Shown: in pieces, positions 741-50,395 of the stretch
How positions within the stretch are numbered: position 1 is the first letter of the stretch
Layout of the letters: every line of letters starts with the position of its first letter
From: an uncultured Nitrososphaerales archaeon
Lineage (GTDB): Archaea; Thermoproteota; Nitrososphaeria; Nitrososphaerales; JACAEJ01
Direction of reading: 5' to 3'
Length of the DNA: 56,830 nucleotides
NCBI GenBank assembly: GCA_938091495.1
Contig: CALLJF010000011.1
Coordinates: forward strand, 1 to 56,830
Translations under genes and position numbers: made by a program
Notes under the pieces: generated by a model
What the model saw: only the letters and a program-made list of their open reading frames with translations
Told to the model about the DNA's origin: nothing
The model's database searches: none

Positions 741-1586
741 TTGACGAAGATGCTGAAGAGAGCTTTAGAGAATATCTTGACAATTGATGAAATCAAGCAA
801 CTATATGGGAGCTTTGATATAATTGGAGATATAGCTGTAATAAAAATCCCTGATGCTCTTTTGGACAAGAAGTTCATAATAGCCAAGGCGATAATGGATA
901 ACATGAAACCAGTAAAGACGGTTTTGAGGCAAGTCACTCCAGTATCAGGAGACTACAGAACGAGAGAGTTGGAGCATATACTAGGAGAGGATAAGACATT
1001 GACATTATACAAAGAGCATTCATGTATATTCAAAGTCGATCTTGCCAAAGCCTACTTCTCTCCAAGACTATCAACAGAGAGGATTAGAATAGCGAAAAAA
1101 GTAAAGAGTGGGGAAACTATAGTGAATATGTTCACTGGTATAGGTTCCTTCTCAATTGTAATAGCAAAGCATCAACCAAACTCAACAGTTTATAGCATAG
1201 ACATCAACCCAGATGCTTATGATTTAATGCTAGAAAATATAAAACTGAACAAGGTTTTCGATAGAGTAATTCCTTTGCTGGGAGATGCAAAATCAATAAT
1301 CCAAGATTCTCTAAGGGGAATTGCTGATAGGGTTTTGATGCCATTACCAGAGAAAGCTATTGATTACTTTGATGTTGCTTTGTTAGCTCTGAAGCCAAAG
1401 GGTGTAATCCATTACTACACACACGTTCACGCCTCTAAGGATGAAGACCCGATTGAGAAGGCTGTGAAAGAAGTTGAAGAGAGATTAAGATTGAATTATG
1501 AAATATTGGAAGCAAGAATAGTTAGAGACGTAGGTCCAAGATGGCATCAATTGGTCCTAGACCTATTGGTAAATAGGGAAACCTAA
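741..1586 (+). CDS. Trm5/Tyw2-family tRNA guanine-37 methyltransferase
   Basis: A class I SAM-dependent methyltransferase of the archaeal Trm5 family, which methylates N1 of G37 in tRNA; some relatives act in wyosine synthesis instead. The SAM-binding loop is NMFTGIGSFS at about 129-138, the acidic strand that contacts SAM is YSIDINP at 151-157, and the NPPY-like active-site loop is VLMPLPEKA at 198-206. The N-terminal region to about residue 100 corresponds to the substrate-binding part. The length of 281 residues is close to short archaeal Trm5 proteins that lack the D1 domain. The start used is TTG at 741; ATG at 750 is an alternative. The 3' end overlaps by 24 nt the decayed MttB gene on the other strand. 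Trm5 versus Tyw2 cannot be settled by eye. Confidence 0.85.
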   Translation: MTKMLKRALENILTIDEIKQLYGSFDIIGDIAVIKIPDALLDKKFIIAKAIMDNMKPVKTVLRQVTPVSGDYRTRELEHILGEDKTLTLYKEHSCIFKVDLAKAYFSPRLSTERIRIAKKVKSGETIVNMFTGIGSFSIVIAKHQPNSTVYSIDINPDAYDLMLENIKLNKVFDRVIPLLGDAKSIIQDSLRGIADRVLMPLPEKAIDYFDVALLALKPKGVIHYYTHVHASKDEDPIEKAVKEVEERLRLNYEILEARIVRDVGPRWHQLVLDLLVNRET

Positions 1587-3024
1587 GGACCTATCTTTAA
1601 TCTTATTCTTCATAAAATTGTCCAGATTCCTTTCAATATCTGGATCGAGTTGCTCTACTTTATGCTCAGACAAAAGCTTTTTTGCATGTATTATGGCTCT
1701 TTTGCAAATGTTTTCTGGCTTGTATTTTCGATCTGACCTTGTCTTTCTTTCCAAAACCAGTGATGGGATGTATTGCTCCTTCTTGAACCAGTTTAGAGTG
1801 TGCTTATTTGTCAAAAAGTTTCCTTCATGAGCTATGATTTTTATTATGTCTATAGCCAATGTTTCGGTTGAAAACTTTATGCCTTTGCTGAGCCTTATAG
1901 CTTGACCACAGATCTCATTGTCTATTGTAAGCTTCTCGAAGCTTTGACAGCTCTCAAAGTCCAGTATTCCAGGACCTGATATTACGTTAATTTCTGCCAA
2001 AGTGCCTATGACTATACCGATGCCAGACTCGAAACCAGACTGAGCATCTACTGTTTTAGAATCACTCAAGCCCAAATAGGCATGAACAGGCAAGCCCAGA
2101 TACTTGCCAATTTCAGAAGAACAGCATTGGATAATTATGCTCTCTATAGCGCTCATAGGCGTAGTGCCAAACCTCATATCAAAGATAGAAGCCGAACTTC
2201 CATAAATCACGGAGCTTTAGGATTGGTCGATTGAGCTAAAACTATCCCACTTAGGGCTTCTGCAGTATGTTGAACGAGTGTACCGGCTAAAGTTGCAGGA
2301 CTTAAGGCTCCTGCTAACGGCATTGGCACTATTTCAACAGGAATCATGAATCTGGAGCAATCTATAAGGTTCTGAGAAGCAACTTCACTCCAAACAAGAG
2401 GTGAATGTGGGAACACATCAAATATTGCCATTGGTTTCTTGACGAGATTCTCTTCACCAATTACTATTGCTAGCATTTTCTTCATGTCACGAACTCCACC
2501 TTTTGTGAAGGTTCCAGTAATAACTGGCTTTGTAGAGTTTTTAACACTGTATAAAGCCTATACCTGCCTACAATTTCTTGATTAACATCAGAAATTACGA
2601 GGGCAGTACTTTGAGCCTTTATGTTGTCTAAAGCTCTGTGAGCCTAACGAAATCAATGAAATCTTTTGAACTCGGCTTTCTAATTTCATCCATATCTGTG
2701 ATTTTAATAGCGGTTGATCTAGGGTTAAAGATTACATTACTTTGCTCTAGCACTATTGCAAGCTTGCCATTCCTATCATGAAGAGATATTTTAGATGGGG
2801 CTTTTACAATACTTTCCTTGATTAGCTCTTCAGGAAGCCTAGCCACCATCCTTTTTGTTAATCTCTCCTCCATTATTACTCACGATTCGTAAAGCCTCTG
2901 AATTGTGATACTTTGCTCCTTTCTCATTTAATAATTCTAAAGCTCCCGCATATATCTCACTTATCTTGTCATTACTTAAGAGTCGAAGACGTGTTGAAAG
3001 ATTGGCGAATGAAAACTTTGACAT
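1563..3024 (-). pseudogene. Trimethylamine/betaine methyltransferase (MttB) family gene broken by four frameshifts
   Basis: Members of this family transfer a methyl group from trimethylamine or a quaternary amine to a corrinoid protein. Four consecutive frames on the minus strand join into one MttB-like protein of about 487 residues, the normal family length. The matches include the N-terminal helix region, a CT-side motif TALVISDVNQE, LKNSTKPVITGTF, PLAGALSPATLAGTL and VIYGSSASIFDMRFG. The joins need one A removed from the A5 run at 2852-2856, one base added near 2632-2636, one A added to the run at 2538-2542, and one base added at 2210-2212. No in-frame TAG suggests a pyrrolysine codon, so it resembles the non-pyrrolysine branch. 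No corrinoid protein gene is adjacent. It is either a real pseudogene or a badly sequenced gene. Confidence 0.85.
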
Positions 3025-11729: not shown

Positions 11730-13043
11730 CTAGCCATAAGAACTTGTCGAGGTTTGCTGAAGCTTTGACTTTCTCATTCTCTGGACTATTGTAGCTACTT
11801 TTCCTTCAAAATCTGTGAAGACTGAATTAAACACGGCAAAGGCTTCGGCTGGAGAGCTATAATATGGTCGCGCTAATTCTGACCCTTCTTTATTTGACAT
11901 ATAAAGAAGATAATCGCTTTGCTGGAAGAGCCTCCATATCTTAGTAATGCCCGCATCATTAATCTCTTTTATATAAGGCGCTAGATTCAAAATCCTATCG
12001 AAGCTTATTCTTTGCATCGGATTATCTAACCATGGACTCATATCTTTACTATTCGCCCAAGATATAGTCTTAACTTCTGGGATTACAATGGTCCCAGTCG
12101 GTTGCAGATTTCTTATGATTTCTGTTGGTATGCCCCATTCTAAATTATCTTTTTTAGCTACCTCTATTGGCAACTTCTTTAGAAATTCGAATATCCCTGT
12201 ATCTTCAGCATTGTATTCGCCAAATGTCTCTATCTCTAAAGCAATCGATATGACGTCTCCAGGCGTAGCAGCAAGCCAATCACAATACTTTTCAGCCGTT
12301 AAAGGGAATTTATCCCATGTATTATCCGAAAATCTGAAAGTTATGTCATCTGACAATCTATGATGCCTAAAGAACAATTTAAGTCCCTTATCGCCTGGCG
12401 AAGAATATACATAATTGGGAGACTTCCAATCAAGGATATTATCCACTTCTTCTGTCAGGACTCCTTCGTAACCAATTTTCTCTACAGCTTTGGCTATAGA
12501 ATCATTGTAAATAAGATCAGTATTTTGGAAAATATTTGGTTCTATTCCAAACAATTTCTTCATTAGTTCACGATGCTGTCTGACCTGTTCAATAAACTCT
12601 GTCATATGTTCTGGATAAACGCCGGCTAATGAGTGATAGTAATTTCCTCCAAGGATCTCTACATGTTTTGTGGCAACTAGCTTTCTTAAAATCCCTATCA
12701 ATTCAGGCTTATACTTTATGGCTTGTTCAACGAAAAGTCCACTCAAACAAAGAGACAATTTAAAGGGTTTATCTGACTTTTCAGTAGAAATTATCATTTC
12801 CAGTAAATAATTAAGAGTTGGATTGTAGCATTTCTTGAATAATCTGTTGAAAACTTCTTGGTTTAATTTATCATCAAAGTATCTATCCATTAGGGATGCT
12901 CCTTCTGCCATCCTTTTAACTCTCTCATAAGGAAACGCTTTGTTGAGCCTTATAGGTTGATGCATAATAAGATAGAGACAAATATGCTTACTATCTACAT
13001 GAACATCTCTTTCTTGCATCTCCGAATTACTCGAGTTTTTCAT
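11730..13043 (-). CDS. Glycoside hydrolase family 57 (alpha-amylase-like)
   Basis: A GH57 enzyme, expected to act on alpha-glucans. The family opening YLIMHQPIRL is followed by the SLAGVYPEH segment and NTDLIYNDSIA. GVLTEEVDNIL may contain the catalytic glutamate and FRFSDNTWD the acid/base aspartate region; the family's ALEIETFGEY also appears. No signal peptide is seen, so it is likely cytoplasmic and may handle glycogen-like storage. It has 437 residues and starts at ATG 13043. It lies upstream of apgM and is divergent from a GalT-like gene, so this area looks like a sugar metabolism locus. Exact substrate is uncertain (amylase or glucanotransferase). Confidence 0.85.
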   Translation of the reverse strand: MKNSSNSEMQERDVHVDSKHICLYLIMHQPIRLNKAFPYERVKRMAEGASLMDRYFDDKLNQEVFNRLFKKCYNPTLNYLLEMIISTEKSDKPFKLSLCLSGLFVEQAIKYKPELIGILRKLVATKHVEILGGNYYHSLAGVYPEHMTEFIEQVRQHRELMKKLFGIEPNIFQNTDLIYNDSIAKAVEKIGYEGVLTEEVDNILDWKSPNYVYSSPGDKGLKLFFRHHRLSDDITFRFSDNTWDKFPLTAEKYCDWLAATPGDVISIALEIETFGEYNAEDTGIFEFLKKLPIEVAKKDNLEWGIPTEIIRNLQPTGTIVIPEVKTISWANSKDMSPWLDNPMQRISFDRILNLAPYIKEINDAGITKIWRLFQQSDYLLYMSNKEGSELARPYYSSPAEAFAVFNSVFTDFEGKVATIVQRMRKSKLQQTSTSSYG

Positions 13044-39536: not shown

Positions 39537-40922
39537 TTAGTAAGGCAAGGTTTCTAACCACGGGTATAGTTCCCTTAGCCTCCTTATAGCCTTCTTCACT
39601 TCCTCTTCTGGGTACTCGTAAGGTGGTAATTTGCCTCGGAGGTAATCATCGTAGGCTTGCATATCGAAGTGGCCATGGCCACACAGCAGGAAGAGTATGA
39701 CTTTTTCCTCTCCTGTCTCTTTGCATCTCAATGCTTCATCAATGACACCCTTTATGGCATGAGATGGTTCGGGAGCTGGTATTATGCCCTCTGTTTTAGC
39801 GAACAGCCTTGCGGCGTCAAAGACCTCCGCCTGATTATAGGCTCGTGTCTCTAACTGCTTCTCCTGAGTCAAGACGCCTAAGGTGGGCGCTTTACCATGG
39901 TAGCGTAAACCTCCAGCATGAATCGGTGGTGGTATGAAATCATGGCCCAAAGTATACATCTTAAACAAGGGTGTAAGCCTTGCCGTGTCACCATGGTCAT
40001 ACATATATTCCCCTTTGGTGATAGAAGGACAAGCCGTAGGTTCGATAGCTAAAAACTTGACATCTTTTGGGGCTTTTCCTGAAACTTTGTCATAATAGAA
40101 GGGCCAGAAGAGACCTGAGAAGCTACTGCCTCCGCCTATGCACCCTATTATTACATCTGGGTAATCATCTACCAACTCAAGTTGCTTTTGGGCCTCTTGT
40201 CCTACTACGGTTTGGTGTAATAGAACATGATTAAAGACACTGCCTATGCCATAGTTCGTTTCTTCATGAGTAAGAGCATCCTCTACAGCTTCGCTGATAG
40301 CAATTCCCAGGCTTCCAGGATGCCCAGGATTTTCTGCTAGAATCTTTCTACCTGCCTCTGTATTGGCACTCGGGCTGGCATGAACTTCAGCTCCCCAAAG
40401 CTCCATCAAAACTCTTCTATAGGGTTTCTGATCGTAACTCGCCCTCACCATGTATACAGTACATTTAAGATCAAAACACATGCAACCAAAGGCTAAAGCA
40501 GAGCCCCATTGTCCAGCTCCCGTTTCCGTAGCCAGACGTTCTTTACCTTCCTTCATGTTGTAGTAGGCTTGTGCAACGGCAGTGTTGGGTTTGTGGCTTC
40601 CTGGGGGGCTGACGCCTTCATACTTATAATAGATCTTGGCTGGGGTCTTCAGAGCTTTCTCCAATCCAACAGCTCTATAAAGTGGGGTCGGTCTCCATAG
40701 GCGGTAGACATTTCGAACCTCTTCAGGGATGTTTATCCATCTTTCCTTACTAAACTCTTGAGCGAGGATCTCCTTAGGGAATATCAGGGGGGCGACTCCC
40801 GGTCCAGGCGCCTTCTTCGACGGATCTATTGGAGGAGGTAGCGGTTTAGGCAAGTCGGGTAGTATGCAGTACCATTGCTTAGGTATTTCTTCCTCATCCA
40901 AAAGTACTTTCCTAGAGATCAT
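39537..40922 (-). CDS. TrpB2-type tryptophan synthase beta-like protein
   Basis: A PLP enzyme of the TrpB2 class, about 60 residues longer than TrpB1 and lacking the usual strong partnership with TrpA. The PLP lysine is K111 in [13 protein letters not shown], and phosphate contacts lie in [10 protein letters not shown]. The 461 residues and the extra N-terminal segment identify TrpB2 rather than TrpB1. It may make tryptophan from indole and serine, or deaminate serine. The classic trpB1 in the operon at 48381 is interrupted, so this gene could supply the missing activity. It begins at ATG 40922. Confidence 0.88.
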
Positions 40923-40929
40923 ATAAATT

Positions 40930-40970
40930 CACTTTATGCCACTTTATGACGTAAATGTCCATTTATATAC
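40930..40970 (-). promoter_or_regulatory. trpB2 promoter: TATA box and two direct repeats
   Basis: On the minus strand a TATA-like GTATATAAAT lies at 40959-40970, about 40 nt before the start codon. On the plus strand two CACTTTATG copies at 40930-40938 and 40940-40948 lie between this box and the start, close to the expected transcription start. A regulator bound there could block transcription. Confidence 0.4.
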
Positions 40971-40989
40971 TTTCCTAAGAACATAAGTT

Positions 40990-41015
40990 GTGCCCTCCAA
41001 CCCTATGGAGGGCAC
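40990..41015. terminator. Perfect 10-bp inverted repeat (possible terminator or operator)
   Basis: GTGCCCTCCA (40990-40999) and TGGAGGGCAC (41006-41015) pair fully around a 6-nt loop, a much more G+C-rich hairpin than its surroundings. It lies 36 nt beyond the end of the decayed DUF169 gene and 20 nt upstream of the trpB2 TATA box. No T tract follows on the minus strand, so a classical terminator is unsure; a regulator site is an alternative. Confidence 0.5.
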
Positions 41016-41050
41016 GTAGCTATTACTCCCTATTTCTGCGAAACTGCTCT

Positions 41051-41480
41051 CTATTTCATGCGCGATAGCAAGTCTGACATTCCCAGAATCCTTTTCTGCA
41101 CGATTTTCCAAGAATTTGTAGTCAAGAAGCTTTCTTCCATGTTCTGGACCATTCTTTTGAACTTGTGCATAGGTACCGAAAATGAGAACGTGCTCTCTGA
41201 AACAAAGGGACGAACTGTGACATCAAATAAACCTATGACAGCTCTTGGATGAGTAGAGTTTTTCTCAAGGAATGGATATTGTACGATTGAGGAACATCCC
41301 GAGCCAAAAGGTGAAAAACAGCGTTCGGTTCAGCCTCGTCAAAGCCTGCTAGTGCGAAGAGACCTAAAAGGACATCGGGACACGTAAAAATTACTACATC
41401 AGGTTCATCAGACTCATCCAACAAATCCCATCTCTTGAAAACGATGAACTTTGCAGGAGCCTCTCAGGTTCACCTGCTGC
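41051..41480 (-). pseudogene. Decayed DUF169 family gene
   Basis: Two frames join into the C-terminal half of a DUF169 protein: APAKFIVFKRWD, DESDEPDVVIFTCPDVL and FDEAEPNAVF, then after a one-base deletion at about 41311-41316 (a T5 run that should be T6 or TTTTTG) PFGSGCSSIVQYPFLE, THPRAVIGLFDVTVRPF, FSFSVPMHKFKRMVQNMEE and a tail to TAG at 41051-41053. A second one-base loss (GG to G) near 41465-41470 blocks the upstream part, and no clear N-terminus is found. DUF169 proteins are of unknown function. It is a probable pseudogene between trpB2 and a divergent COG1325 operon. Confidence 0.75.
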
Positions 41481-43899: not shown

Positions 43900-45319
43900 A
43901 TGGAGGAAGAAAAGTTGGGTGATTTAGTTTGGTTACGAGCGATATAATGGCCCATCTAATCTTAAACTGAACCTTAAATCCTTCCCATACATTCCTCCAA
44001 TTCAAATCTTCAAAAAGATTCATAAGAAATTTGAGACTGCCTACATACTAGAATCAGTCACAGGTCCAAAGAAATTAGCCCAGTACTCCTTTATAGGATT
44101 TGAGCCTAGACTCATCTTAAAGGCGAAGGGTAAAGAGTTAGAGATAAAGGATTGTAAAGAAGGATTTTTGGAAAGGAAGAATGCAAAGGACCCATTACGC
44201 ATTATAAAAGAGATACAAGGCGGTTTTATTCGTGATCAAAGATGGCCAAGACTGATTGGAGGGGCTGTTGGCTATGTATCCTATGACGCTATTGAATACT
44301 GGGAAAGAATCAAATCGAGTAAGAATGATTTAGGCTTTCCCTATATGGAATTTGGCATCTTTGATGATGGTATAGCATTCGATCATATAAATCATAAAGC
44401 ATTTTACTATTTCCAAGAAGAGGATCGTAGCAAAGAGATAAAATCTGATCTTGAAGAGCCTGAAAATATTGACGATCTGTATTATTCTCAGCCAAAAGTG
44501 AATATAGAATTCAATTCTTTTTGTGAGAAAATATCAAAGGTAAAAGATTACATATTTTCTGGAGATATATTTCAAGCAGTTTTATCTAAGAGATACGATC
44601 TCAAGATAAAAGGTGACCTTATTCACTTCTACGAGTCTTTAAGAAGAATAAACCCTTCTCCTTACATGTATTTCATAAAGATGAGTGATAGACAGATAGT
44701 CGGGTCTAGCCCAGAGATGCTCGTAAGAGTGGATAATGGAATTGTTGAGACATTCCCTATTGCTGGCACAAGACCTAAGCTCAAAGATAAAACTATGAAT
44801 GATATTATGCAAAAAGAGCTTCTTATAGATCCGAAAGAGTGTGCGGAGCATGTAATGCTAGTGGATTTAGCAAGAAACGATATAGGTAAGGTATGTGAGT
44901 TCGGTAGTGTTCATGTTTCAGAGTTTATGAAAGTTCATCAGTATAGCCATGTACAACATATAGTTTCAAGAGTTTTAGGTAAGTTAAAAAAGGACAAAGA
45001 TGCCTTTGATGTGTTTAGAGGAGTATTCCCTGCTGGAACAGTTACTGGAGCCCCTAAGATAAGAGCCATGGAAATAATAGATGAATTGGAACCTTCAAGA
45101 AGAGGACCTTATGCAGGAGCTATAGGATACTTCTCTAACAATGGAAATGCAGATTTTGCCATAACAATAAGAACTTTGGTAGCGAGTAGGGATAAAGCAT
45201 ACATTCAGGTAGGATCAGGAATAGTCGCTGATTCTGACCCATCAAAAGAATGGCTAGAGACAGAGTACAAAGTAGAGGCTTTAATGAAGGCTTTAGAGGT
45301 ATCTGGAAGGGTTTTTTGA
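43900..45319 (+). CDS. trpE: Anthranilate synthase component I (frameshift near start)
   Basis: Catalyses the first step from chorismate to anthranilate with TrpG. Frame 2 codes the full protein: IQIFKKIHKKFETAYILES, then VTGPKKLAQYSFIGFEP, and the chorismate-binding core with GGAVGYVSYDAIEYW, RRINPSPYMYF, ETFPIAGTRPK, DLARNDIGKV and FPAGTVTGAPKIRAMEI. All are intact, including the feedback-region-like ES(V). The likely start, ATG 43900 after the TATA box, is in frame 1 and encounters a stop at 43945 unless one T is removed from GTTTGG at about 43928-43930. So a one-base change near codon 9 interrupts it. No standard start exists in frame 2 before TTG 44168, which would drop about 85 conserved residues. 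Confidence 0.85.
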
Positions 45320-45907
45320 ATGAGGATTCTCATAATAGATAATTATGATTCCTTCGTCTACAATTTAGTTCAGTATGTAGGCGAACTGGGGGCTGATCCT
45401 TTAGTTTATAGGAACGATCAGATAAGCCTTGATAATATTGAGAGGATGAAGCCTAATGGCATAATATTATCTCCTGGTCCTGGTACCCCTGAAAATGCAA
45501 AGTACTTTGGTATTTGTTCATCGATTATAAGGCAAATGGGCTGTAAGATTCCTATATTAGGCATATGCTTAGGACATCAAGGGATAATTCATTCCTTTGG
45601 AGGAAAGATAGTTCGTGCAAATAACATAATGCATGGCAAGACGAGCATGATAAAACACGATGGAAACGGAGTCTTAAAAGGAATAAAGAATCCCTTTAAA
45701 GCTACTCGCTATCATTCACTTATTGGGGATAAATTAACACTTCCTTCTTGCCTTAAGATTACTGCTGAGTCTTTAGATGATGGTGAAATAATGGGAGTAA
45801 GGCATATCTCATACCCTATAGAAGGCTTACAATTCCATCCTGAATCCATTCTCACAGATAATGGCAAGAAGATAATAGAAAACTTCCTAAAGAGTGTTTC
45901 AAAATGA
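45320..45907 (+). CDS. trpG: Anthranilate synthase component II, glutamine amidotransferase
   Basis: Supplies ammonia from glutamine to TrpE. It is a class I glutamine amidotransferase with the nucleophile cysteine in GICLGHQGI and the His-Glu pair in QFHPESILT near the C-terminus. The N-terminus ILIIDNYDSFVYNLVQYV and SPGPGTPENA are hallmarks. The 195 residues are typical. It starts at ATG directly after the trpE stop. An aminodeoxychorismate synthase role (PabA) is possible in principle, but the operon makes TrpG most likely. Confidence 0.95.
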   Translation: MRILIIDNYDSFVYNLVQYVGELGADPLVYRNDQISLDNIERMKPNGIILSPGPGTPENAKYFGICSSIIRQMGCKIPILGICLGHQGIIHSFGGKIVRANNIMHGKTSMIKHDGNGVLKGIKNPFKATRYHSLIGDKLTLPSCLKITAESLDDGEIMGVRHISYPIEGLQFHPESILTDNGKKIIENFLKSVSK

Positions 45908-46965
45908 TAAGGGAAGGGATTCAGAAGGTTGTAGATGGTAAGGACCTTAGCCATTTAGAAGCTCAAACTATAATGAAAGAGTTAATGTCAGGCAATGCAA
46001 CCAACGCTCAGATAGCCTCTTTTTTGACTGCTTTAAGGATGAAAGGAGAGAGCATCGAAGAGATTTCAGCCTTTGCCAGAGTTATGAGGGATTTCTGCCT
46101 TAAGATTCATCCTCATGTCAATAAGCGTATCATAGACATAGTTGGTACAGGTGGAGATAGAATCAAATCCTTTAATGTGAGTACGACAGCATCTTTCATA
46201 GTTGCTGGTGCTGGTGCAATAGTTGCAAAACATGGCAATCGATCATTCACAAGTAAATGTGGCAGTGCGGATGTTCTTGAGAAATTGGGCTATAACTTGA
46301 ATACAGAACCTAGCATTATTGAGAAATCTATTGAGCAGGTAGGAATAGGATTCATGTTTGCGCCAAGGTTTCATCCAGCCATGAAGTATGCTTTAGAACC
46401 AAGGAAAGAGATAGGAATAAGAACGATCTTCAACATTCTAGGTCCAATAACTAACCCAGCAAATGCAAGCGGGTACCTATTAGGTGTTTATGAAAGGAAA
46501 TTAACAAAGCTCATGGCTTATGTTCTAAAGAATCTCGAAAGTGAAGAGGCTATGGTGGTTCATGGCTTAGATGGATTGGATGAAATCTCAACTATAGGCA
46601 AGACCGAGATGGCATGGTTAAAAGAAGACGAGATAAGCGTAATGGAATTATCTCCTAAAGACTTTGGAGTTAGGCTGGCAAAGCAAGACGAGATTGAAGG
46701 TTCTAATCCAGAAGAAAGTGCCGAAATTGTATTCAGAATTCTAAACGGATTTTACAAGAAAGGCGATCCGAAGATGGATATGGCTTTGGTAAATGCAGCC
46801 AGTGGAATCGTTGTTGGCGGGCTTACTGATAAATTCGATGAAGCAATGGAGTTGGCTTACGAATCCGTTAAGAGCGGTGCTGCTTATAGCAAGCTCAAGA
46901 TGATGATAAAATTCTGCGAAGGAAGCATGGAAAAGTTAGAGGAGTTTGAAATTAAATTTGGTTGA
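45904..46965 (+). CDS. trpD: Anthranilate phosphoribosyltransferase
   Basis: Adds PRPP-derived ribose phosphate to anthranilate, the second step of the tryptophan pathway. The PRPP loop GTGGDRIKSFNVSTTAS is present, as is KHGNRSFTSKCGSADVLE, the anthranilate and metal region. The N-terminal small helical domain opens with LEAQTIMKELMSGNATNAQ. The 353 residues are standard. The ATG overlaps the TGA of trpG, so both are translated in a coupled fashion. Confidence 0.96.
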   Translation: MIREGIQKVVDGKDLSHLEAQTIMKELMSGNATNAQIASFLTALRMKGESIEEISAFARVMRDFCLKIHPHVNKRIIDIVGTGGDRIKSFNVSTTASFIVAGAGAIVAKHGNRSFTSKCGSADVLEKLGYNLNTEPSIIEKSIEQVGIGFMFAPRFHPAMKYALEPRKEIGIRTIFNILGPITNPANASGYLLGVYERKLTKLMAYVLKNLESEEAMVVHGLDGLDEISTIGKTEMAWLKEDEISVMELSPKDFGVRLAKQDEIEGSNPEESAEIVFRILNGFYKKGDPKMDMALVNAASGIVVGGLTDKFDEAMELAYESVKSGAAYSKLKMMIKFCEGSMEKLEEFEIKFG

Positions 46966-47743
46966 TTTTTTAGACTTTATGATTCAAGATGTGAAGAGAA
47001 CCATTAAGGAAGGATACTATAATGTTCAATTTAATGAGAGAAGGTTACAAAGGAGCTTAAAAGATTCTATTGTAAAATGCAAAAAGATTCCTATCATAGC
47101 TGAGATAAAGCTCGCATCTCCAAAAGATGGTATATTAAAAAAAGAAATAGATGTGAGAGAGATGGCAATCGCTATTGAGAAGGGAGGGGCGGTAGGAATA
47201 TCTGTACTCACCGAACCAAAGCACTTTAAGGGTTCTTTAGAGATTTTATCCATAGTGCGAAAAACTGTGGATTTACCTATTCTTATGAAGGACTTCATAA
47301 TAAGTCCAGTTCAGATAGAAGCTGCTGATAAGATTGGCGCTGATGCTGTTCTTTTGATAAAGTCCATATTTGACCGTAAATTTAGTAAAATAAATTTAAA
47401 TGAGATGATCGAAATAGCAAAGTCAAAAAGTATTGAAGTTTTACTTGAGGTTCATAACGAGGATGAATTTCTCTCATCTCTTCAAACGGAAGCTGACATG
47501 ATAGGTATAAACAATAGAGACTTAACAACTTTAAGTGTCGATCTTGAGGTCACAAAGAGAATATTGAGTAAGATAGAGAATAGAGGGAGAACAATAGTAA
47601 GCGAAAGCGGGATTAGCCATCCTACTGATGTAAAAGCATTATACAGTTTTAACGTTAAAGCCTTTCTCATAGGTAAAGCCATTATGACTGCAAGAGATGT
47701 TGAAACCAAGGTTCGTGAATTCGTGGAGGCTACATTATGGTAA
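46946..47743 (+). CDS. trpC: Indole-3-glycerol-phosphate synthase
   Basis: Closes the indole ring to form indole-3-glycerol phosphate. It is a TIM barrel: PIIAEIKLASPKDGI contains the catalytic lysine, VGISVLTEPKHFKGSLE, LLIKSIFD, EVLLEVHN, GINNRDLTTL and VSESGI follow in order. The 265 residues fit. The start is TTG 46946 or an internal TTG 46958, overlapping the end of trpD. The order trpC then trpF is seen in other archaeal trp operons. Confidence 0.95.
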   Translation: MKLNLVDFLDFMIQDVKRTIKEGYYNVQFNERRLQRSLKDSIVKCKKIPIIAEIKLASPKDGILKKEIDVREMAIAIEKGGAVGISVLTEPKHFKGSLEILSIVRKTVDLPILMKDFIISPVQIEAADKIGADAVLLIKSIFDRKFSKINLNEMIEIAKSKSIEVLLEVHNEDEFLSSLQTEADMIGINNRDLTTLSVDLEVTKRILSKIENRGRTIVSESGISHPTDVKALYSFNVKAFLIGKAIMTARDVETKVREFVEATLW

Positions 47744-48384
47744 GAGTCAAAATATGTGGCATAACCAATGAAGAGGATCTTAAGAATTCAATAATTGCCG
47801 GAGCTGATGCTCTCGGCTTTGTAATAGATGTGAATTCATCGCCAAGAAGTATTAGCATAGATAGAGCTAGAGAATTAATGGAAAAGGTTCCTATATTTAT
47901 AAGCAAAGTGGCTGTAACTGTTCTTAATGATTTTGATCGAATCATTGAAATAAAGAATAGGTTAAAGCCTGAATACATCCAAATTCATGGGGATTTTGAC
48001 TTCGATGATGATTACATGCTTAAGGCTTTATGTGATATGCGCATGATAAGGGCAATAACATTAAAATCAAATCTATCATTGGAATCTGTTTTAAACGAAG
48101 CAGAGAATTTTGACGCTATTCTCATTGACTCTTATAAAGAAGGCAAGTATGGAGGAACAGGGATGGTTAACGACTTTAAAGTTTGCAGAAAGATCAGAGA
48201 AGCGATAAGTCCAAAGCCATTGATATTGGCTGGCGGCTTAAATCCAGATAACGTTGAAGAGGCGATACGCATAGTCAAACCATTTGCAGTAGATGTTAGC
48301 AGCGGGGTTGAATCATCTCCAGGCATAAAGGACTATGAAAAGTTGTCAAATTTTGTAGCTAGTGCTAAGAGGGTTAAGAATTGA
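47737..48384 (+). CDS. trpF: Phosphoribosylanthranilate isomerase
   Basis: Isomerises phosphoribosylanthranilate for TrpC. It is a TIM barrel with the catalytic cysteine in [13 protein letters not shown] at the N-terminus, the [17 protein letters not shown] segment and the C-terminal [15 protein letters not shown] phosphate-binding loop. The 215 residues are typical. ATG 47737 overlaps the trpC stop by 7 nt. It is separate from TrpC, unlike the enteric fusion. Confidence 0.95.
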
Positions 48385-49580
48385 AGGAATTTATGAAATA
48401 TCCAATAGATGGAAAATATGGAAAATATGGTGGGCGATTTATGCCAGAGACTTTGATGAGCGCTGTTCTTGATTTAGAAAAATCGTACTTGAAACTGAAG
48501 AATGACCAAGAATTCAAAAAAGAGCTTGATTACTATCTATCAGAGTACGCTGGCAGACCTACTCCACTATATTTCGCTAAGAACTTGTCGAAAAAAGTAG
48601 GAGGTGCAAAGATCTATCTTAAAAGAGAGGATTTATTGCATGGAGGAGCCCATAAGATAAATAACACTCTAGGTCAAGCTCTAATGGCAAAGAAGATGAG
48701 AAAGAATAGAGTGATAGCTGAAACTGGAGCTGGTCAACATGGTGTAGCAACAGCCATGGCATGTGCAGTTCTTGGTTTAAAAGCTGAGATATACATGGGA
48801 AAAGAAGATATTGAGCGCCAGAAACTCAACGTTTTTCGAATGAATCTATTGGGCGCGAAAGTCCATCTAGTTGAGTCTGGATCAAGGACGCTAAAGGATG
48901 CAATAAATGAAGCCCTTAGAGACTGGGTAGCTAATGTTAAGACAACTTATTATCTCATAGGCTCTGTCGTTGGTCCTCACCCTTACCCTATGATAGTTAG
49001 AGACTTTCAAAGCGTAATAGGAAAAGAGATCAAATCACAGATAATAGAGAAAGAGAACAGATTGCCAGATGCCTTAATTGCTTGTGTAGGAGGAGGGAGT
49101 AATGCCATGGGTACCTTTTACCCATTCTTAGACGATCATAATGTCAAATTATATGGTGTTGAAGCAGGAGGGCATGGTATAGAATCAGGAGCGCATGCAG
49201 CTTCTCTTTGTGCCGGAGATGAAGGAATCTTACATGGAATGCTTACATACCTTCTTCAAGATGAGCATGGTCAAATCAGTACAACCCATAGCATATCTGC
49301 TGGTCTCGATTACCCTGGCGTTGGACCTGAACACTAATTTCTGAAAACCATTGGCAGAGCGAAGTATGTGAGCATAAATGATGATGAAGCTGTCAAGGCT
49401 TTTATTGAACTATCTAAAACTGAGGGTATAATTCCGGCTTTAGAACCTTCCCATTCTTTAGCCTTTGCCATAGAACTGGCTGAAAGCATGAAAAAAGATG
49501 ATTTGATAGTTGTAACTTTATCTGGTCGTGGGGATAAAGATGTGCAAGTTGTAGCAGATTATCTTAAAGTGAAGATTTGA
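48381..49580 (+). CDS. trpB: Tryptophan synthase beta chain TrpB1, interrupted by an in-frame TAA
   Basis: Makes tryptophan from indole and serine, in complex with TrpA. The sequence is full-length (399 codons) and shows K92 in [30 protein letters not shown] and, at the end, SGRGDKD. At codon 319 (49335-49337) a TAA replaces the residue after the conserved GPEH motif, and the same frame continues normally with [11 protein letters not shown] to a TGA at 49578-49580. A single C to A change in TCA would explain it. Without readthrough the last 80 residues, including the serine that contacts PLP nitrogen, are lost. The remainder shows no other damage. A TrpB2 gene 8 kb away may compensate. Confidence 0.88.
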
Positions 49581-50395
49581 TGAGCATAAAGGAAACTTTT
49601 AAGAGGCTTAAGGATAGGGGTGAGGGCGCCCTCATTGGTTATATAATGGGAGGTGACCCTAGACCTGATCTTACACCAAAGATAGCTGAAGCGTTAATAG
49701 AAGGTGGAGCGGACGTATTAGAGCTAGGAATCCCCTTTTCAGATCCTGTAGCAGATGGTCCAACGATTCAGGCAGCAAATTTAAGAGCTTTGAAATCTGG
49801 GACAACTCCTACAAGAGTCTTAGAAATAACCAATCAAATTAAAGGCTGTCATAATATACCTGTCGTTATCCTTACTTACTACAACATCATCTTTAGAATA
49901 GGTTTAGAGAATTTCTTCGATAAAGCAAAGAAGAGTAAAGTCGATGGTATAATTGTGCCAGATTTGCCAGTGGAAGAAGCTCAAGATTACAAATTTATAG
50001 CCAATAAACATGGCATTGATACAATATTTCTTGCCTCTCCTTCCACGAGCATTGTTAGGTTGAAGAAAATTATCGAGTGCACTTCAGGCTTTCTCTATAT
50101 TGTATCTCTCTTTGGTGTAACTGGCGCTAGAAAGACACTTAGAAGATCAACTATTCGCCTTATAGAAAGAATAATACCTTACATTAAGGGTGAGACACCT
50201 CTTGCAGTAGGCTTTGGCATTTCTCAACCATATCAAGTTAGAAGCATCATAGAGGCAGGAGCAGATGGGGCTATAGTAGGAAGTGCTTTTGTAGAAATAA
50301 TTCAGAAAAATGAATATAATGAGGATAACATGCTAAACAGCATAAGGAATTATGCAAATGAATTGAAAAAAGCCACCATTTTGGAAGGCGAATAA
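49580..50395 (+). CDS. trpA: Tryptophan synthase alpha chain
   Basis: Cleaves indole-3-glycerol phosphate to indole and glyceraldehyde 3-phosphate. The catalytic Glu is in VLELGIPFSDPVADGPTIQ, the aspartate in VDGIIVPDLPVEEA, and FGVTGARKTL is the flexible loop. AVGFGISQPYQV and ADGAIVGSAFVEII close the phosphate site. The 271 residues are typical. ATG 49580 shares one base with the trpB stop, so TrpA is intact though TrpB is interrupted upstream. It ends the trp operon. Confidence 0.95.
   Translation: MSIKETFKRLKDRGEGALIGYIMGGDPRPDLTPKIAEALIEGGADVLELGIPFSDPVADGPTIQAANLRALKSGTTPTRVLEITNQIKGCHNIPVVILTYYNIIFRIGLENFFDKAKKSKVDGIIVPDLPVEEAQDYKFIANKHGIDTIFLASPSTSIVRLKKIIECTSGFLYIVSLFGVTGARKTLRRSTIRLIERIIPYIKGETPLAVGFGISQPYQVRSIIEAGADGAIVGSAFVEIIQKNEYNEDNMLNSIRNYANELKKATILEGE

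Follow-up and report, generated by a model that had tools for sequence, protein, structure and literature searches.

A single in-frame TAA in the operon-borne trpB1 of an uncultured archaeon: a recent null allele or a consensus error

The tryptophan operon carried by the window (the whole stretch of 56,830 nucleotides of archaeal DNA analysed here) raises the question of why a tryptophan synthase beta-chain gene, trpB1, that appears sound in every other respect should be interrupted four-fifths of the way along by a TAA codon. The frame runs from a TTG at 48381 to a TGA at 49578-49580, and the TAA sits between the GPEH motif and [11 protein letters not shown] (translation around the stop: ...[21 protein letters not shown]...[20 protein letters not shown]). 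The bases and the translation confirmed what the original prediction had described, namely a TAA directly after GPEH in a frame that is otherwise open, and a gene with no further damage: this TAA is the sole internal stop, and there are zero frameshifts. A chance open reading frame was rejected, since the read-through frame matches the TIGR00263 profile over its full length (643.6 bits, positions 1-384, cut-off 392, with the one TAA inside) and shares about 95% identity with its intact counterpart in the sister genome G001. The truncated part alone still scores 536.1 bits. The features of the region are collected in Table 1.

Table 1. Coordinates of the trp genes and of the parts of trpB1 in the window
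Feature	Position	Strand	Basis or remark
trpE, intact	44168..45319	+	PF00425, PF04715
trpG, intact	45320..45907	+	PF00117; TIGR00566
trpD, intact	45904..46965	+	TIGR01245, 413.8 bits
trpC (indole-3-glycerol phosphate synthase), intact	46946..47743	+	PF00218, 238.9 bits
trpF, intact	47737..48384	+	PF00697, 144.8 bits
trpB1 (tryptophan synthase beta chain), TTG start, single in-frame TAA	48381..49580	+	translation; TIGR00263
Predicted truncated TrpB1, 318 aa; PLP-lysine region kept, S371 equivalent lost	48381..49337	+	
In-frame TAA, codon 319	49335..49337	+	TCA in both congeners; A/S/C in 109/109 related loci
Orphaned C-terminal part, 80 sense codons, conserved, with LEPSH and SGRGDKD motifs	49338..49580	+	
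trpA, intact	49577..50395	+	TIGR00262, 302.8 bits
TrpB2 paralogue outside the operon, intact, 461 aa	39537..40922	-	TIGR01415, 643.9 bits; NF009057, 714.8 bits

Alignment with the TrpB1 of P. furiosus places the stop at residue 309 of that protein (offset 10) and its active-site residue S371 (PMC1854888) at position 381 of the window's gene, well past the stop, in agreement with the earlier claim that a PLP-contacting C-terminal part is lost. The frame over the C-terminal active-site motif (SGRGDKD, at about 381, and the E of LEPSH) is thus interrupted at codon 319, and because the last 80 residues, including the active-site serine of SGRGDKD, would be missing, the product should be inactive. 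The effect may extend beyond the beta chain. The ATG of trpA begins at 49580, the base with which the trpB TGA ends, and since trpA thus starts inside this stop codon, early termination may also reduce trpA translation; TrpA would be lowered by the stop 243 bases upstream if trpA translation needs ribosomes that finish trpB.

The window is contig 11 of a 1.386-Mb (about 1.39-Mb) draft genome in 59 contigs, with a completeness of 96.6% and a contamination of 1.71%. Almost all of this contig can be aligned with contig 11 of G001 (JZ2_bin.220247, record JARVKD010000001.1), at about 94-95% nucleotide identity. G001 is listed in PMC9478090 as JZ-2-bin_220, 'Ca. Methylarchaeum tengchongensis', whose source is a hot spring in Tengchong, and the window's archaeon is congeneric with it. 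A further genome of the same family, HK01M, is a 'Ca. Methylarchaeales' MAG, from a group proposed as methyl-reducing methanogens (PMC9478090).

A closer inspection of codon 319 in relatives gave a uniform picture. Both genomes of the same genus, G001 and G002, read TCA (Ser) there, so that one C-to-A change at 49336 suffices, and the origin from TCA proposed in the original prediction is borne out by these close orthologues. The proposal that Ser or Ala is usual at this site held as well: of 109 related archaeal and bacterial trpB loci, 81 encode Ala at this position, 27 Ser and a single one Cys, and none has a stop. No exact copy of the DNA surrounding the stop was present in any of the other loci compared, and in the relatives search an internal stop was absent from 44 of the 45 genomes with a TrpB1 above the cut-off, the exception being the window's own. 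The trpB of G001 (L146) carries a lesion of another kind, a one-base deletion at about 9860 (window 49563), near its 3' end, which shifts its stop a few codons upstream with the loss of only the last residues.

The substitutions in trpB bear on the age of the stop. The dN/dS between the window's genome and G001 is 0.083, and with G002 as outgroup 27 synonymous and 6 non-synonymous changes, plus the stop, fall on the branch leading to the window's genome, and 18 and 9, respectively, on that of G001. Free drift of trpB along the whole branch of the window's genome should have left about 95 non-synonymous changes; the 6 observed limit a neutral phase to at most about 12% of that branch (95%, one-sided). 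The part after the stop, taken alone, holds 3 changes and gives a less informative limit of 44%, and constraint before and after the stop on this branch does not differ significantly (Fisher p = 0.14). The other trp genes are under ordinary constraint, with similar ratios on both branches and no relaxed selection, trpA included, which is expected of a very recent loss and equally of no loss. An old pseudogene was rejected on these substitution counts. trpB1 was under strong purifying selection until recently, and the low non-synonymous count leaves a stop that is very young, or not real, or a protein that still works. If TrpB1 is dead, its death falls in roughly the last 12% of the branch since the sister genomes split, and any loss of tryptophan synthesis, which the original prediction had also considered, is dated by these data as very recent.

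The most probable reading, to which we give about an even chance, is a very recent nonsense (null) allele of trpB1 whose base is real, and an error in the consensus is nearly as likely. The latter, according to which the population has a serine codon and a normal TrpB1, is a serious contender that falls somewhat short of an even chance. It draws on the draft state of the assembly, on the ordinary selection acting on the remainder of trpB and of the operon, and on the stop being the only lesion, at a site with a sense codon in every relative. Artefact-like stops do occur in MAGs, as in the trpB of the Clostridiales MAG MI.10_12 (L088, 3877-3945), where a run of 13 codons close to the counterpart of the window's TAA holds two in-frame stops and several unusual substitutions; these stops are probably an assembly or sequencing artefact.

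Lesion rates, sampled on stretches of the window's genome and G001 over 125 conserved genes, each 120 codons or longer and intact in G001, speak against a high error rate, since no further single-stop lesion was found among them; moreover, a random error seldom yields a stop (about 1 in 25, an estimate). However, one stop in about 110 kb of coding sequence is also compatible with consensus errors at a rate near 2e-4 per base (again an estimate, with 1 in 25 substitutions giving a stop). Three of the 125 genes were flagged in the window's genome: trpB, an mttB-like gene and a third whose stop lies at residue 26. This last looks like a start-site difference and was discarded, as were apparent internal stops in some other gene comparisons, which lie near the 5' ends and likewise resemble start-site differences; only trpB and the mttB-like gene are broken. 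The latter (window 1563-3024, minus strand) belongs to the MTTB family (trimethylamine methyltransferase-like, PF06253), is intact in G001 (490 aa) and carries four frameshifts, from deletions of one or two bases, as well as a gap of six bases, with a pairwise dN/dS of 0.16. Its four frameshifts indicate that real gene decay occurs in this genome, and they were counted in favour of a real allele. On the same contig, a 437-aa gene at 11730-13043 (minus strand) is intact in the window's genome; its G001 counterpart, reduced by small deletions and a gap of about 460 bases, is a decaying or misassembled gene.

Readthrough, offered in the original prediction as one way out, found no support in tRNA, context or structure. 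The frame downstream of the stop is intact and conserved, as functional readthrough or recoding of UAA to a full-length TrpB1 would predict, but a recent origin of the stop predicts this equally, and with the stop missing from both congeners there is no conserved recoding signal. TAA is the stop of 31 of the 54 window genes compared and aRF1 is present in the genome (470 bits), on which grounds a genome-wide reassignment of TAA was rejected. The base after the TAA is U, and the RNA downstream folds no better than its shuffles (z = 0.38), so that a structured readthrough element was discarded too. A tRNA with a UUA anticodon was not recognised among 38 tRNA genes, some of the intron-bearing ones being assigned by eye and a few left unplaced, in an assembly of the completeness given above; the survey is not airtight, because many tRNAs have one or two introns. 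Such introns, sometimes two per tRNA, were seen in L141, L121, L138, L139, L142, L152, L157, L158 and L159, and they lead to wrong anticodons in ARAGORN, including a false tRNA-Pyl call: L141, a candidate suppressor reported as 'Pyl (CUA)', was rejected after its reading by eye with two introns gave a tRNA-Gly(UCC) similar to archaeal tRNA-Gly. Pyrrolysine decoding was rejected as well, since the profile search of the genome gave a best PylS match of 29 bits against a cut-off of 178 and the codon is UAA, not UAG. The titles and abstracts of the literature gave no directly relevant case of UAA readthrough in archaea. Functional readthrough or recoding is therefore very unlikely. Slightly less probable still is its specific form in which UAA would be read through at a useful level and termination efficiency would set tryptophan synthesis; the output of trpB1 would then be two protein forms, one short and one full-length.

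The intact downstream frame also contains a possible GTG start at 49368, from which a C-terminal piece of 70 aa could be re-initiated and form an active TrpB1 together with the 318-residue part. No clear ribosome-binding site was seen by eye before this GTG, and the relatives have neither a conserved start nor a gap, which leaves a split enzyme as the most improbable of the explanations considered.

The paralogue TrpB2, at the coordinates given in the original prediction, lies on the minus strand, is intact and scores above the cut-off of its family. Its dN/dS against G001 is 0.10, and TrpB2 occurs alongside TrpB1 in 6 of the 7 genomes of the family; it is thus ancestral there, and the redundancy is old. 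A search for a second intact trpB1 in the window's genome found none; beyond trpB1 itself it gave only TrpB2 and a weak match of 29% identity. A takeover of de novo tryptophan synthesis by TrpB2, with TrpB1 being discarded, is an improbable account that overlaps with the recent null allele. The intactness, constraint and wide occurrence of TrpB2 in the family are in its favour, as is the description of TrpB2 enzymes as O-phosphoserine-dependent tryptophan synthases (Busch 2014, as cited in PMC11917138). Nevertheless, the coexistence of both enzymes across the family indicates that TrpB2 alone has not released TrpB1 from selection, and non-operon TrpB2 binds TrpA least (PMC1854888).

Nine relatives in the order have a TrpB2 above the cut-off and no TrpB1 in the search; eight of them lack trpA and trpC above the cut-off, several of these nine genomes being incomplete, and in the exception, G031, TrpB2 adjoins both genes. 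A lone TrpB2 in this order therefore tends to accompany loss of the de novo pathway, and indole salvage fits better than a simple takeover. PMC11917138, with reference to Busch 2014 and to Hettwer and Sterner 2002, describes TrpB2 as having a high affinity for indole, and the TrpB2 of the window probably salvages indole rather than replacing TrpB1. The earlier suggestion that TrpB2 takes over is weakened accordingly. TrpB2 and its upstream flank (window 39537-41250) diverge from G001 far more than the rest of the window does (dS 0.50 against about 0.15; identity from about 39801, taken in steps of 200 bases, is 82-88%), which suggests allele replacement through recombination in one lineage.

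Under the preferred reading, a recent null allele, a single C-to-A transversion in TCA, the codon of Ser-319, would have given an otherwise well-kept, operon-borne trpB1 an ordinary UAA stop. A standard aRF1 would read this UAA and release a TrpB1 of 318 residues, so that the allele would be a strain-level knock-out, very young relative to the split of the sister genomes. The cell would retain TrpB2, and tryptophan could still be made from indole where indole is available. We infer that the base is in the organism rather than an error of the consensus. If so, the first step of tryptophan-pathway loss has been caught in an uncultured lineage that has putative methyl-reducing methanogens among its relatives, with the beta chain dying while trpA, the remaining operon and TrpB2 are still intact. 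If the base is an error, a lone stop in one draft assembly is no ground for claims of auxotrophy or recoding. In either case the evidence speaks against a new decoding mechanism, and this is an ordinary single nonsense change or a sequencing error.

With TrpB1 enzymes (TIGR00263; P. furiosus TrpB1, PDB 1V8Z and 1WDW) the window's gene shares homology over its full length through the stop, the position in the operon and the active-site motifs, and it differs from them by the TAA and by the shortened product predicted from it. As with the TrpB2_o class (TIGR01415), a second beta-chain-like enzyme is present outside the operon; it is a separate gene, 33% identical to TrpB1, in a class whose binding to TrpA is reported to be weak or absent. 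The resemblance to the pyrrolysine and selenocysteine recoding of methanogenic archaea lies in relatives that are putative methyl-reducing methanogens with mttB-like genes, whereas the codon here is UAA and not UAG or UGA, with neither a PylS above the cut-off nor a cognate tRNA found. Compared with recent nonsense pseudogenes, the window's trpB1 is known from the consensus of one draft assembly and so may be a consensus error; it has in common with them a lone stop that is missing in its closest relatives, whose copies are intact, in an otherwise intact and formerly constrained gene with no long-lasting relaxation of selection.
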